A stretch of 40,807 bases of DNA from Thermoplasmata archaeon. Lineage in GTDB: Archaea > Thermoplasmatota > Thermoplasmata > Lutacidiplasmatales > UBA184. Shown here piece after piece: positions 21,478 to 32,486 of this stretch (within the stretch, counting starts at the first letter, position 1; each line of letters opens with the position of its first letter). The notes beneath the pieces are model-generated. The model was not told the origin of the DNA. It ran no database searches and was given only the letters and a program-made list of their open reading frames with translations. The position numbers and the translations under genes are program-made. The stretch lies in assembly GCA_022749995.1 (NCBI GenBank), contig JAKIWO010000006.1, positions 1 through 40,807 of the forward strand, given 5' to 3'.

Positions 21478-22694
21478 GCCGGGTCGTCGAGGTGACGCTC
21501 CGCGCCATCGTGGACAGCCGGGGTTCCCCGACGGTCGAGGCGGAAGTGACCGACGCCGACGGCCACCGCGGCCGCGCCGGTGCACCGAGCGGGGCGAGCA
21601 CGGGCACGCACGAGGTGCTCGCCCTGCCGGAGGGGGGCGTGCCCGCCGCCCTCGATCGATTCCGGACCGACGTGCGTCCCGCGTTGCTCGGGCGCGAACT
21701 CTCCGACGCTCCGGGCTGGGACGCCGCATTGCACCGGGCGGACGGGGACGATGAGTTCCGGCGCATCGGAGGTGGCGTCGCCACCGCCCTCTCGATCGCC
21801 GCTGCCATCGCCCGAGCTCGGGCGGCGGGAGTTCCCCTCTGGCGCAGCTGGCTCCGGCCGGGACTGGACGGCTCCGGTCGGCCCATGATCGTCGGCAACT
21901 GCCTCAACGGGGGCCGGCACGCGATCGGCGGACCGGAGTTCCAGGAGTACCACGCGATCTCTTCCGCACCGAACCCCGCGGATGCCGTGCGGGCGGCCAT
22001 CGCCGTGCACCGGCGGGTCGGCGAGGCCCTCACCGAGAAGTTCCCCAAGCTCGCGCTCGGCCGGGGCGACGAGGGCGGATGGGTCGCGCCGCTCGGCAGC
22101 CTGGAGGCGCTCGAGCTACTCAGTCAGGCGTGCGAAGCGGTCCGCGACGAGACCCATCTGCCGGTCCACCCCGGGCTCGACCTCGCGGCGAGCGAGTTCT
22201 TCTCCGACGGCCAGTACCGCTACCGGGACCGGAACCTCGACCCCGACGGCCAGCTGGCCTTCCTGGTCGAGTTGGTCGACAAGTTCGGGCTCAAGTACAT
22301 GGAGGACCCGTTCGAGGAGGAGGCGTTCGACAGCTTCGCGGCGTTCACGAAGGCGGTGGGGGGGAAGCTCCTCGTGGTGGGGGACGACCTGTATACTACC
22401 GGACTCGCCCGTCTGGAGCGCGGCATTGCCGAGAAGTCGACCAACTCGGTGCTGATCAAGGTCAACCAGGTGGGCACGTTGACCGACACGTTTGCCACGG
22501 TCGACCGGGCGCGGGCCGCCGGCTGGTCGACCATCGCCTCGCACCGCAGCGGCGACCTGCCGGAAGGGTGGCTCAGCCACTTCGCCATCGGGACGGGGGC
22601 CCGGGGGCTCAAGTGCGGACTCCTCGGCGGGGAGCGTGTGGCAAAGCTAAATGAACTCCTGCGGCTCGCCGCCCCCGCGCAGACCTCCCCATGA
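21474..22694 (+). CDS. eno: Enolase (phosphopyruvate hydratase), divergent
   Basis: This 406-residue protein belongs to the enolase superfamily. Its glycolytic role is conversion of 2-phosphoglycerate to phosphoenolpyruvate. Motifs seen include PSGASTGTHEV, LNGGRHAIGGPEFQE, GDEGG (E200), metal ligands D236, E277 (YMEDPF) and D304 (VVGDDLY), catalytic K329 (LIKVNQ), SHRSG with H357, and K380. The usual SGETED motif after SHR is replaced by SGDLPEGW and the DNN-type metal loop by AIGGPEFQEY, so this is a divergent enolase whose activity should not be taken for granted. The GTG at 21474 overlaps the mce stop (GTGA), and its stop overlaps the rpsB start (ATGA). Confidence 0.88.
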   Translation: MSRVVEVTLRAIVDSRGSPTVEAEVTDADGHRGRAGAPSGASTGTHEVLALPEGGVPAALDRFRTDVRPALLGRELSDAPGWDAALHRADGDDEFRRIGGGVATALSIAAAIARARAAGVPLWRSWLRPGLDGSGRPMIVGNCLNGGRHAIGGPEFQEYHAISSAPNPADAVRAAIAVHRRVGEALTEKFPKLALGRGDEGGWVAPLGSLEALELLSQACEAVRDETHLPVHPGLDLAASEFFSDGQYRYRDRNLDPDGQLAFLVELVDKFGLKYMEDPFEEEAFDSFAAFTKAVGGKLLVVGDDLYTTGLARLERGIAEKSTNSVLIKVNQVGTLTDTFATVDRARAAGWSTIASHRSGDLPEGWLSHFAIGTGARGLKCGLLGGERVAKLNELLRLAAPAQTSP

Positions 22695-23350
22695 CCCCCG
22701 ACGAAGTCGAAGCAGAACCGCCGATCCGGGCCGACGACGGTCAGGACATCGAGCCGGGGGAGCTGCTCCTGCCGGAGGAGACGTACCTCACGTCGGGTGT
22801 CCACATCGGCACCCAGCAGAAGTCGGCGTCGATGCGCCGCTTCGTCTACAAGATCCGGTACGACGGGCTCTACGTCCTCGACATCAAGGAGACCGACCGC
22901 CGCATCCGCCTCGCCTCTCAGTTCCTCGCCCGGTTCCCTCCCGAGAAGATCCTCGCGGTCTCGCAGCGGCAGTACGGGCAAAAGCCCGTGCGCCTGTTCG
23001 CCAAGTCGATCGGCGCGGTCAGCTTCTCGGAGCGATTCGTTCCGGGTTGCCTCACCAACCCTGCCCTAACCGAGTATCTCGAGCCGAAAGTGCTCGTCGT
23101 CACGGACCCCGCGACCGACCAGCAGGCGCTGAGCGAGGCGGTCTCGATCGGCATCCCCGTGGTGGGGATCTGCGACGTCAACAACGAGACGCGCAACGTC
23201 GACTTCGTCATCCCCGCGAACAACAAGGGGCGGGTCGCGCTCGCGACCGTCTACTGGTTGCTCGCCCGGGAGATCCTCAAGGCCCGCGGCGGCCCCGCGG
23301 CCGAAGTGCCGTTCCCTCTCACCATCGAAGACTTCCAAGTCTCGCTCTAG
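22691..23350 (+). CDS. rps2: 30S ribosomal protein S2
   Basis: This 219-residue archaeal uS2 protein is part of the small subunit. An acidic N-terminus leads into LLLPEETYLTSGVHIGTQQK, followed by YVLDIKETDRRIRLASQFLA, GCLTNPAL, LVVTDPATDQQALSEAVSIG and PVVGICDVNNETRNVDFVIP, the most conserved blocks of the family. The ATG overlaps the enolase stop by 4 nt, as in many archaea where eno and rpsB are adjacent. Confidence 0.97.
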   Translation: MTPDEVEAEPPIRADDGQDIEPGELLLPEETYLTSGVHIGTQQKSASMRRFVYKIRYDGLYVLDIKETDRRIRLASQFLARFPPEKILAVSQRQYGQKPVRLFAKSIGAVSFSERFVPGCLTNPALTEYLEPKVLVVTDPATDQQALSEAVSIGIPVVGICDVNNETRNVDFVIPANNKGRVALATVYWLLAREILKARGGPAAEVPFPLTIEDFQVSL

Positions 23351-25441: not shown

Positions 25442-25458
25442 ATGTACACCGAGTACAT
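25442..25458. promoter_or_regulatory. Perfect dyad upstream of the tfb promoter (possible operator)
   Basis: ATGTAC and GTACAT are perfect inverted half-sites separated by ACCGA. The element ends 14 nt upstream of the TATA box, a position where archaeal activators or repressors bind. Confidence 0.5.
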
Positions 25459-25472
25459 CGGCATGACCAAGG

Positions 25473-25479
25473 TATATAA
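25473..25479 (+). promoter_or_regulatory. TATA box of tfb
   Basis: TATATAA preceded by CAAGG is near consensus. Transcription should begin near 25500-25505, which excludes the in-frame ATG at 25442 and supports translation from 25511. Confidence 0.75.
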
Positions 25480-25510
25480 GGGGGTGGACCTTGCCGCTTA
25501 TAGGATTTCC

Positions 25511-26572
25511 ATGAAGCAGAACGCACTCGCCGGCCGCAAGGAGGCCGATGTCGACGCCCTCAGTTCCCCCGTGGCGGAGGTCTGCCCGGAATGCGGTTCG
25601 ACCCATCTGACCCGCGACGACGTGCGCGGTGAGGTGGTCTGCGCCGACTGCGGCTTGGTCGTCGACGCGAGCGCCCTCGTTTCGGACCGTGGCCAGCGCG
25701 GCAGCAAGGAAGACACCGGCCGTGAGGCCCGCGGCTGGGGCCCCGTCATCTCTCCCCTCATGCCGGACAAGGGGCTGTTCAGCGAGATCGGTGTCCCGAC
25801 GCGCGACTTCCAGGGCAACTCGCTCTCTCGGAACACCTCCCTCAAGTTCTACCATCTGAGGAAGCTCAACCACCGGCTCCGCGCCGCCCGCACCCACCAG
25901 CGCAACCTCGTCGTCGCGCTGGGGGAGCTCAACCGGCTCGCCGGCGTCCTGGGTCTGTCTCGCGAGGTCAAGGAGTCGGCGACGTACATCTACCGCCGTG
26001 CCCTCGAGCACAAGGCCACGCGGGGCAAGAAGATCGTCGCCCTGGTCGCGGCGAGCGTCTACGCGGCCTGCCGCCAGTGCCACGTGCCGCGCACGATGAA
26101 GGAGATCATCGCGCACTCCAAGGCCACCAAGATCGAGGTCGGTCGGGCGTACACGTTGCTGGCCCGCGAGCTCAAGCTCGGGCTCAAGCCGGTGGAACCC
26201 CGCGACTACCTGGTGCGGTTCACCCAGGACCTCAACCTCTCCAAGGAGGTCCGGGCGAAGGTGCTCGACCTGCTCGAGCAGGTGGAGCAAGTGTACTCCA
26301 CGAGCGGCGTGCTACCGAACGGGATCCTCGCGACGATCATCTACATCGCGTCGAACCTGATGGGCGAGCCACGCAGCCAGGACCGGATCGCCGCGGTCGC
26401 GAACGTGACCCCGGTCACGATCCGCAACCACTACAAGGAACTCCTCGACCTGCTCGGGCTGCCGAAGAACCTCGCCAACCCGCAGGCCCGGGCGCTCCTG
26501 CCCCCGGGCACCCTCGGCGGACGCCCGAGCGTCGCCAAGGACATGGGTCCCGCGATTCCGGCCGACGCGTAG
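25511..26572 (+). CDS. tfb: Transcription initiation factor B (TFB)
   Basis: This 353-residue general transcription factor bridges TBP-bound TATA DNA and RNA polymerase. The zinc ribbon has C25, C28, C44 and C47 (VCPECGS, VVCADCGLV). A linker with the B-reader-like segment follows, then two cyclin-fold repeats at about 140-235 and 245-335, the second including VLDLLEQVEQVYSTSG and the helix-turn-helix VANVTPVTIRNHYKELLDLL. Length exceeds a typical 300-residue TFB because of an extended ribbon-core linker and C-terminus. The start is set by the TATA box position. The dyad upstream hints at regulation beyond the basal promoter. Other tfb copies cannot be judged from this window. Confidence 0.95.
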   Translation: MKQNALAGRKEADVDALSSPVAEVCPECGSTHLTRDDVRGEVVCADCGLVVDASALVSDRGQRGSKEDTGREARGWGPVISPLMPDKGLFSEIGVPTRDFQGNSLSRNTSLKFYHLRKLNHRLRAARTHQRNLVVALGELNRLAGVLGLSREVKESATYIYRRALEHKATRGKKIVALVAASVYAACRQCHVPRTMKEIIAHSKATKIEVGRAYTLLARELKLGLKPVEPRDYLVRFTQDLNLSKEVRAKVLDLLEQVEQVYSTSGVLPNGILATIIYIASNLMGEPRSQDRIAAVANVTPVTIRNHYKELLDLLGLPKNLANPQARALLPPGTLGGRPSVAKDMGPAIPADA

Positions 26573-31088: not shown

Positions 31089-31108
31089 CGGGGCCGGAAA
31101 CCGGCAAA

Positions 31109-31116
31109 GCTTATCT
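31109..31116 (+). promoter_or_regulatory. TATA-like element of the tRNA-Ser gene
   Basis: GCTTATCT after CAAA is about 30 nt upstream of the mature 5' end at 31145, a normal promoter distance for an archaeal tRNA. Confidence 0.55.
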
Positions 31117-31144: not shown

Positions 31145-31262
31145 GCCGAGGTGGCTCAGTCCGGTACGGCGCGAGTCTGGAAAGCTCGTGGCGGAAATCG
31201 CCTCGGGAGTTCAAAGGCCGCGCTCGGACCACCCGGCGCGGCGGAGAGTCTCCCCCTCGGCG
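31145..31262 (+). tRNA. tRNA-Ser(GGA) interrupted by a T-loop intron
   Basis: The acceptor strands GCCGAGG (31145-31151) and CCTCGGC (31255-31261) pair perfectly, with discriminator G at 31262 and no encoded CCA. The anticodon arm is CGAGT-CTGGAAA-GCTCG with anticodon GGA at 31179-31181. A long variable arm, GGCG-GAAAT-CGCC, marks a class II serine tRNA. The T stem GGGAG (31205-31209) pairs with CTCCC (31250-31254). The T loop begins TTCAAA and is completed by T at 31249, after a 33-nt insert. Without it the tRNA would be 85 nt and canonical. The amino-acid identity and the intron are both read directly from the sequence. Confidence 0.9.
31216..31248 (+). other. 33-nt archaeal tRNA intron at position 59/60
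   Basis: The insert forms a hairpin with the perfect stem GCCGCGC/GCGCGGC. Around the junctions a relaxed bulge-helix-bulge can be drawn: outer T stem, central UUCA against GGAG (one A-G mismatch, one U-G pair) and 3-nt bulges AAG and AGU. Cutting after the second base of each bulge joins TTCAAA to T, restoring the 7-nt T loop. Confidence 0.8.
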
Positions 31263-31291: not shown

Positions 31292-31765
31292 ATGCCGGTC
31301 GGTCCCGCCGAACAGGAGGCGGCGCTCCGCCAGGTGGACGCGTTGCTCGGTTCGGCGCTTCGGCCCGAGGGGCTGACCGAACTCTGTCGATTCCTTCGGC
31401 GGGCGTTCGCCCACTACACGTGGGTGGGGGTCTACCGGCTCGAAGGCAGCACCCTCGTGCTCGACGGCTGGGACGGGGAGCGGGCGACGGAGCACGTCCG
31501 GATCCCCCTCGACCAGGGGCTCTGCGGGAAGGCGGCGCGGGAGGACCGCACGGTGCTGGTGGGGGACGTGCGCTCCTCTCCAGAGTACCTATCCTGCTTC
31601 CTCGACACCCGTTCGGAGATCGTCGTGCCAGTGCGAGCCGGCGGGCGGGTCGTCGGCGAGATCGACGTCGATGGGCAGTCGACGAACGCCTACGACCGAA
31701 CCGACGATGCCTTCCTCACCGAGGTCGCGCGCCGGCTCGGCCCTTGGCTCGCACGGCCGGCGTAG
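31292..31765 (+). CDS. GAF-domain protein related to free methionine-(R)-sulfoxide reductase
   Basis: This 157-residue protein is a single GAF domain. The GLCGKAA and YLSCFLDTRSEIVVPV blocks, with C78 and C102 spaced 24 residues apart, match two of the three cysteines of free methionine-(R)-sulfoxide reductase (fRMsr). The third position, in the block before GLCG, is His (H68). It may therefore be a reductase with altered recycling or a GAF sensor derived from that family. Its last 50 nt overlap the 3' end of the convergent phosphopantothenate synthetase gene. The ATG at 31292 begins 30 nt after the tRNA. Confidence 0.82.
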   Translation: MPVGPAEQEAALRQVDALLGSALRPEGLTELCRFLRRAFAHYTWVGVYRLEGSTLVLDGWDGERATEHVRIPLDQGLCGKAAREDRTVLVGDVRSSPEYLSCFLDTRSEIVVPVRAGGRVVGEIDVDGQSTNAYDRTDDAFLTEVARRLGPWLARPA

Positions 31766-32486
31766 CTCGGCGCATCGCCCGCAGCGCTTGCTCGGGAAGC
31801 TGGGACGCCCACGTCGGGACGGAGCGCCATCGGGCCGGACCCCGCGAGCGCCGGAGCTCGGCCGTGATGGCGACTAAGGCGCGGGTCAGCTCGTCGATGA
31901 TGGCCAGATCCGCCGCGCGGGCGGTGCGGGAAAGTGGGTTGAGGTCGATCGCGATCACCCGCTGGCCCCGACGGCGCAGCGCGAGGGCGCGGTCGCCGTC
32001 CTCCAGCGGGATCATACAGAGGTCGGCCGACCAGATGCCCTCCTCGTCCACGAGGGCGCGGTCGGAGGGGAGGCCCGGGATGCGCCGAGTCGGTCGACGT
32101 CCGAGCACGCCGTGGACGCCGGCCTTCTCCAATTCGGCCGCCACGCCCGCCACCCGCCGGGGGGTCCGGTGGAAGAGGTTCACCTCGACCCGAAGGTTCG
32201 GTAACGCACGCTGGAGGGCCGCCACCTCCCTGGAGGCGAGGGCGGCCACGTTTCCGTTGACCGAGAGCACCGGGCGACGGGCGGACTTGAGCCAGCGCGC
32301 AGCGAGCCTCTCGGCGCGCCGTGCCGACGGGCTCGTGCGCTCACCGAGGAGGTAGTCGAACGCCTCGGCCCGCCCCTGGGCGATCAACCCCTCGGGAACG
32401 ACGAGTCCCCGGTCGGAGGCCGCCGCGAGCCTCGCGCGCAGTCGGAGACTCCGGTAGCGCGGATGGCGGGGCGAGAGGTGCGTCAC
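31716..32486 (-). CDS. pps: 4-phosphopantoate--beta-alanine ligase (archaeal phosphopantothenate synthetase)
   Basis: This 256-residue ATP-dependent enzyme makes 4'-phosphopantothenate in the archaeal coenzyme A pathway. Family hallmarks are present: SPRHPRYRSLRLRARL at the start, EGLIAQGRAEAFDYLLGE, PVLSVNGNVAALASRE, VEVNLFHRTPRR, GVLGRRPTRRIPGL, DLCMIPLEDGDRALAL and VIAIDLNPLSRTARAADLAI. The start is a GTG at 32486, 14 nt after the stop of the coiled-coil gene. A basic tail of about 30 residues after the conserved domain overlaps the convergent GAF gene. Confidence 0.93.
   Translation of the reverse strand: MTHLSPRHPRYRSLRLRARLAAASDRGLVVPEGLIAQGRAEAFDYLLGERTSPSARRAERLAARWLKSARRPVLSVNGNVAALASREVAALQRALPNLRVEVNLFHRTPRRVAGVAAELEKAGVHGVLGRRPTRRIPGLPSDRALVDEEGIWSADLCMIPLEDGDRALALRRRGQRVIAIDLNPLSRTARAADLAIIDELTRALVAITAELRRSRGPARWRSVPTWASQLPEQALRAMRRATPAVRAKGRAGARPR

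Follow-up and report, generated by a model that had tools for sequence, protein, structure and literature searches.

The closest described relatives of the intron reported here are the introns at tRNA position 59/60 of Thermoproteales, other Crenarchaeota and Thaumarchaeota, with which it shares the intron type, the bulge-helix-bulge (BHB) motif and protein-only splicing. Position 59/60 is a listed non-canonical intron position (PMC4090602), and non-canonical introns were described in a review as almost exclusively crenarchaeal (PMC3218864), a statement that is already broken by soil Asgard genomes, which carry heavy loads of such introns outside Crenarchaeota (PMC11291895). Broad-specificity splicing endonucleases have been correlated with non-canonical introns (PMC4090602, PMC12397907). 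The alpha'2 enzymes, in contrast, are reported to be strict for the canonical BHB (PMC12397907, PMC6379350, PMC4033280), and a review assigns to archaea with alpha4 or alpha'2 enzymes only few introns, all of them at the canonical position 37/38 (PMC4090602). Unlike the known 59/60 introns, those that we describe here occur in Thermoplasmatota, where nearly all non-canonical introns share a single position and fall in a fixed set of isodecoders, with a strict 3-4-3 BHB, a conserved A57.G pair and a predicted alpha'2-type splicing endonuclease (EndA). In the open-access literature we found no earlier description of T-loop introns in the tRNAs of Thermoplasmatota or Methanomassiliicoccales; a GtRNAdb listing is possible.

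The locus lies in a stretch of 40,807 nucleotides, analysed as a whole and referred to as the window, from a Thermoplasmata MAG that is 87% complete and belongs in or beside Ca. Lutacidiplasmatales, an order of soil archaea that are uncultured. A tRNA-Ser(GGA) gene with a 33-nt BHB intron at position 59/60 occupies exactly positions 31145-31262 of the plus strand, and its features are as follows.

31106-31115, plus strand: TATA-like promoter element (AAAGCTTATC), a conserved TTA-containing box upstream of Ser(GGA) loci
31145-31215, plus strand: 5' exon, tRNA-Ser(GGA) positions 1-59, stems and loops taken from the sequence, with a match in 81 of 81 family genomes searched (the match seen in some being the Ser(UGA) paralog alone)
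31179-31181, plus strand: anticodon GGA, in the loop CTGGAAA flanked by CGAGT and GCTCG
31205-31209, plus strand: 5' strand of the T stem, which is the BHB outer helix, 5 of 5 paired with 31250-31254
31210-31213, plus strand: 5' strand of the BHB central helix (T54 T55 C56 A57), pairing with 31243-31246, the conserved A57.G last
31214-31216, plus strand: 5' bulge A58 A59 / G(i1), with the predicted 5' splice site at 31215/31216, from the 3-nt bulge geometry and the intronless orthologs
31216-31248, plus strand: intron, 33 nt, at tRNA position 59/60, precisely missing in L272, L276, L277 and L278
31217-31242, plus strand: intron hairpin, which is the BHB inner helix, MFE -19.3 kcal/mol, with two-sided changes among orthologs
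31243-31246, plus strand: 3' strand of the BHB central helix (GGAG), pairing with 31210-31213
31247-31249, plus strand: 3' bulge A G / T60, with the predicted 3' splice site at 31248/31249, from the 3-nt bulge geometry
31249-31262, plus strand: 3' exon, positions 60-73, CCA not encoded, identical in the intron-bearing and intronless orthologs examined

Recomputation of stems, loops and anticodon bore out the identity that a first-pass annotation had given to this gene, including its claim that four named stems are paired: the acceptor stem GCCGAGG/CCTCGGC pairs at 7 of 7 positions, the anticodon stem CGAGU/GCUCG at 5 of 5 with one U.G among them, the variable stem GGCG/CGCC at 4 of 4 and the T stem GGGAG/CUCCC at 5 of 5. 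The D stem is paired at 3 of 4 positions and the discriminator is G73. Deletion of 31216-31248 restores a complete cloverleaf with the T loop TTCAAAT, and the annotated intron and its spliced T loop are confirmed by the same product in intronless orthologs. The BHB is of the 3-4-3 type, with bulges AA/G and AG/T of 3 nt each, and its central helix, formed by TTCA (31210-31213) and GGAG (31243-31246), comprises the pairs U.G, U-A, C-G and A.G, that is, three standard pairs with A57.G at the inner end, the single A.G that had been noted before. Within the intron, an inner helix of 7 bp (GCCGCGC/GCGCGGC) is followed by CGG/CCG. A TTA-containing box was present about 34-39 nt 5' of the tRNA start in 43 of 50 Ser(GGA) loci. 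In a mechanical scan of the window for the interrupted-tRNA architecture this locus was the only one found, while the same scan of 150 simulated windows gave one weaker match and none with an inner helix. Neither ARAGORN nor Rfam at the gathering threshold called a tRNA in the window, as had been anticipated for simple tRNA finders. Elsewhere in the window lie the genes for ribosomal protein uS2 (22691-23350, plus strand), transcription factor B (25442-26572, plus strand) and archaeal 4-phosphopantoate-beta-alanine ligase (31716-32486, minus strand), all of them usual in archaea and in keeping with an assignment to Thermoplasmatota.

Is the interrupted T loop of tRNA-Ser(GGA) an isolated case in this genome? 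Introns at 59/60 interrupt about 14 of the approximately 38 tRNA genes recognised (12 of them detected by script, Lys(UUU) and Leu(UAG) in addition), namely Ser(GGA), Ser(CGA), Ser(GCU), Arg(UCU), Arg(UCG), Gly(UCC), Asn, Glu(CUC), Ala(GGC), Gln(CUG), Asp, His, Lys(UUU) and Leu(UAG), and the same 14 isodecoders carry them in a 100%-complete relative from another genus (G031). The earlier remark that such an intron is unusual outside Thermoproteales-like Crenarchaeota was thus incomplete, since the intron is one of about 14 in its genome and part of an order-wide pattern. A position common to 14 isodecoders could reflect a recent spread of the introns by transposition among tRNA genes, as reported for Thermoproteales, and the hits in Cys, Lys(CUU), Arg(CCG) and Gly(CCC) of other Thermoplasmatota suggest repeated gain at one site. 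We nevertheless regard a recent spread as unlikely, because the introns of different isodecoders within the window's genome are no more alike (identity 0.56) than shuffled ones (0.53, sd 0.06), and because the presence of the same 14 isodecoders in another genus indicates that the set is old.

Further introns were seen in the same genome. Canonical 37/38 introns are present in Tyr, Met and Leu(UAA). The Lys(UUU) gene (L205, contig C36:1211-1350, minus strand) and the Leu(UAG) gene (L207, contig C6:20010-20199) appear to hold two introns each, a D-arm intron in addition to that of the T loop, and both apparent double introns recur in G031 (L332, L335); Leu(UAG) in the window's genome, where the stretch read is short, is the least certain of the 14. 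A double-intron Lys(UUU) seems to exist in a more distant member of Thermoplasmatota (L179) and possibly in another (L199). A D-arm intron is the probable sole intron, with uncertain borders, of Arg(GCG) (L024 1046-1151, minus strand) and Pro(UGG) (L206). The tRNA-Trp gene (C12:6130-6600, L036, minus strand) contains a long intron with uncertain borders, which is perhaps the box C/D guide intron known in other archaea. The tRNA-Gly(UCC) gene (C2:10821-10920; L026 1494-1593) carries C33 where U33 is usual, in the anticodon loop CCTCCAA.

We searched 390 Thermoplasmatota genomes, nearly all of the compared genomes being fragmented MAG-type assemblies, with a covariance model of the interrupted tRNA that was built from equal-length trimmed sequences. 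Strong matches were obtained in 82 of the 390, with 10 candidates scored per genome and a search depth that was unequal between genomes. On this scale of 10 scored candidates, all 24 listed genomes of the window's family had at least four to eight strong matches; in the other positive genomes the number was mostly one or two and never above four. Among the outgroups with introns at 59/60, Methanomethylophilus 1R26 has one in Arg(UCU), SKW197 in Ala(CGC) and Arg(CCG), TL1-5.bin102 in Lys(CUU), and Methanomassiliicoccales E29_bin30 in His and Met. As the isodecoders affected differ between lineages, 59/60 looks like a recurrent insertion site. A control set of 150 Methanobacteriota genomes yielded no T-loop intron, its single match being 71 nt long and intronless. 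In a sister genus (G067), one locus (L348) is a tRNA-Arg(CCG) with an unusually long T-loop intron of 47 nt; the window's genome has this isodecoder without interruption.

From the A-G mismatch, the first-pass annotation had predicted a splicing endonuclease of relaxed specificity. The corresponding explanation, a relaxed BHB that needs a broad-specificity enzyme of the crenarchaeal (alpha-beta)2 or ARMAN epsilon2 kind, would agree with the non-canonical position, with the one non-standard pair and with the correlation of broad enzymes with such introns elsewhere (PMC4090602, PMC12397907). We judge it quite improbable, as both the motif and the enzyme speak against it. All 148 distinct 59/60 introns that we tabulated share the 3-nt bulge geometry, and the bulges of Ser(GGA) measure exactly 3 + 3 nt. 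The pair at position 57 is A.G in 78 of the 148, G-C in 50, A-U in 17 and A.A in 3, counts that were obtained with a detector demanding at least three of four standard pairs in the central helix, so that position 57 was free whenever the other three were paired. Two simpler descriptions of this position were rejected: G57 is not partnered by C without exception, given two counterexamples (G.G and G.A) in G067 and G406, and the pairing of A57 is not mostly chance, the partner among 98 A57 introns being G in 78, U in 17, A in 3 and C in none. A57.G was present in 46 of 46 intron-bearing Ser(GGA) orthologs. It also exchanges with a standard pair: tRNA-Asp has G57-C in the window's genome and several relatives and A57.G in G067 and G406, and tRNA-Arg(UCU) has A57.G in the window's genome and G57-C in G067. 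Owing to this conservation and exchange, A57.G behaves as an accepted pair, and on comparative sequence grounds it is best read as the closing pair of the central helix, not as decay.

The endonuclease itself, whose type had been marked for checking, does not look like one of a broad-specificity kind. A single EndA gene on contig C41 encodes 353 amino acids with two PF01974 domains in one frame, and exactly two such domains were found in 58 of 61 family genomes; one genome had one and two had none, presumably because these assemblies are incomplete. Tyr291, His299, Lys330 and Arg323 in the C-terminal half are invariant among 26 Thermoplasmatota sequences, and the N-terminal half lacks the catalytic Tyr and His. 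By its sequence, EndA is thus classed as alpha'2: one gene, two fused domains and a catalytic triad confined to the C-terminal domain, with neither a two-gene (alpha-beta)2 nor a three-unit epsilon2 architecture. An AlphaFold2 monomer model (pLDDT 90.2) matched in Foldseek the Methanopyrus subunit-fusion structure 5x89 (TMt 0.88) and the A. fulgidus alpha'2 chains (TMt 0.83-0.86), and the ARMAN-2 epsilon2 enzyme scored lower (TMt 0.60). In sequence alignment, neither EndA nor its Thermoplasmatota relatives showed a CSL/ASL insertion between FGS and LELS. At the site that received the grafted CSL in the A. fulgidus EndA of 3p1y, FGSRVGHRLELS aligns gap-free to YGSEKGDLVTLS, the turn being short as in the native A. 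fulgidus enzyme. The ARMAN-2 epsilon2 and crenarchaeal (alpha-beta)2 enzymes likewise serve genomes rich in non-canonical introns, but they do so with an ASL or CSL loop that carries a key Lys and with a three-unit or two-gene architecture, neither of which we see here. With the alpha'2 enzymes of Archaeoglobus fulgidus, Thermoplasma and Ferroplasma, EndA shares the two fused PF01974 domains, the Tyr/His/Lys set restricted to the C-terminal half and the fold, whereas its 353 amino acids, with a fuller N-terminal half, exceed their 289-305. The known alpha'2 enzymes are described as narrow (PMC6379350), in contrast to the many T-loop and some D-arm introns of the lineage studied here. The closest EndA sequences come from soil Thermoplasmata MAGs, e.g. 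SubAcS9-61 and AcS1-67, which are entries in a Lutacidiplasmatales table (PMC9287336).

How is the Ser(GGA) intron itself maintained among relatives? In genomes with a true ortholog, the 5' exon is 100-86% identical. Out of 50 Ser(GGA) loci read, 46 are interrupted at this position by an intron of 31-33 nt and four are not. These four, from four genomes of a sister genus (g3), read GGGAGTTCAAATCTCCCCCTCGGCG without interruption, which is the predicted spliced product, and thereby confirm the intron boundaries; they are consistent with either precise loss or ancestral absence of the intron. Mean identity to the window's gene is 96% for exons and 68% for introns, compared with 54% for shuffled introns. 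Among 32 distinct 33-nt Ser(GGA) orthologs, 6 of the 10 pairs of the intron helix have changed on both sides, which exceeds the shuffled and slid controls, and 87.3% of its cells are paired, against 43-65% in slid versions, with 2 of 500 shuffles reaching the observed value; the control is subject to the relatedness of the orthologs, and the covariation signal is moderate. A second, uninterrupted Ser(GGA) copy, which the first-pass annotation would have taken, together with absent spliced RNA, as a sign of a pseudogene, was sought in the genome and none was found, the 5' exon having one full match and one other that is tRNA-Ser(UGA).

A pseudogene or assembly artefact with a retained insert, to which the silence of off-the-shelf tools and the MAG assembly might point, is scarcely credible for the sole Ser(GGA) gene of the genome, whose exons are 96% conserved across about 50 genomes and whose insert keeps a BHB with two-sided changes and recurs in independently assembled genomes; 13 further isodecoders, among them the sole Asn, Asp and His genes found, would have to be dead as well. 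That the locus is what is left of a permuted or split tRNA, or a forerunner of one, for which the identical break position 59/60 in Thermofilum and Cyanidioschyzon could be cited (PMC3218864), deserves equally little credence, since its halves follow each other in the usual order, separated by 33 nt and joined by a complete BHB, and no ortholog examined is permuted.

On the sequence, structure, conservation, covariation and empty sites of the locus, together with the presence and type of EndA and the presence of an RtcB ligase gene (contig C39), we assign a probability of roughly 0.94 to a functional, single-copy tRNA-Ser(GGA) that is spliced from a BHB by an alpha'2-type EndA and RtcB, by a route common to about 14 tRNAs. 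By analogy with established archaeal splicing, the TATA-like promoter would yield a precursor of at least 118 nt, in which the T arm and the 33-nt intron would fold into a BHB with the T stem outside, TTCA/GGAG at the centre and 3-nt bulges. A predicted dimer of this EndA would then cut in both bulges, and RtcB would ligate the exons, such that TTCAAAT is regained. Cutting within a T loop is plausible because the alpha'2 EndA of Ferroplasma (Thermoplasmatales) cleaves a minimal BHB without a tRNA body at 30 C (PMC8707768). The same route would serve the approximately 14 tRNAs with identical intron position in the window's genome and in the order. Weighing against this explanation are the central helix with only three standard pairs, given the reported strictness of such enzymes (PMC12397907, PMC6379350, PMC4033280), the fragmented MAG-type nature of nearly all genomes and the moderate covariation.

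The finding points to an ordinary splicing mechanism in a new lineage, and it conflicts with the reviewed 37/38-only rule for alpha4 and alpha'2 archaea. In an order whose genomes combine alpha'2 enzymes with about 14 T-loop introns each, the rule of position fails, and the rule of BHB geometry survives, the geometry itself being still close to strict; non-canonical place and relaxed motif, two ideas that are usually merged, are here separated. The tRNA inventories of such MAGs may lose a third of their genes with a finder that admits introns in the anticodon loop only. More tentatively, and at somewhat less than even odds, we speculate that throughout a Thermoplasmatota order about one tRNA in three matures by T-loop splicing, carried out by an alpha'2 EndA that lacks the loop and would recognise A57.G as the pair closing the central helix. 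If true, this would break the proposed rule that broad intron placement needs CSL/ASL-type or heteromeric enzymes, and the D-loop/T-loop elbow of these tRNAs would form only after splicing.
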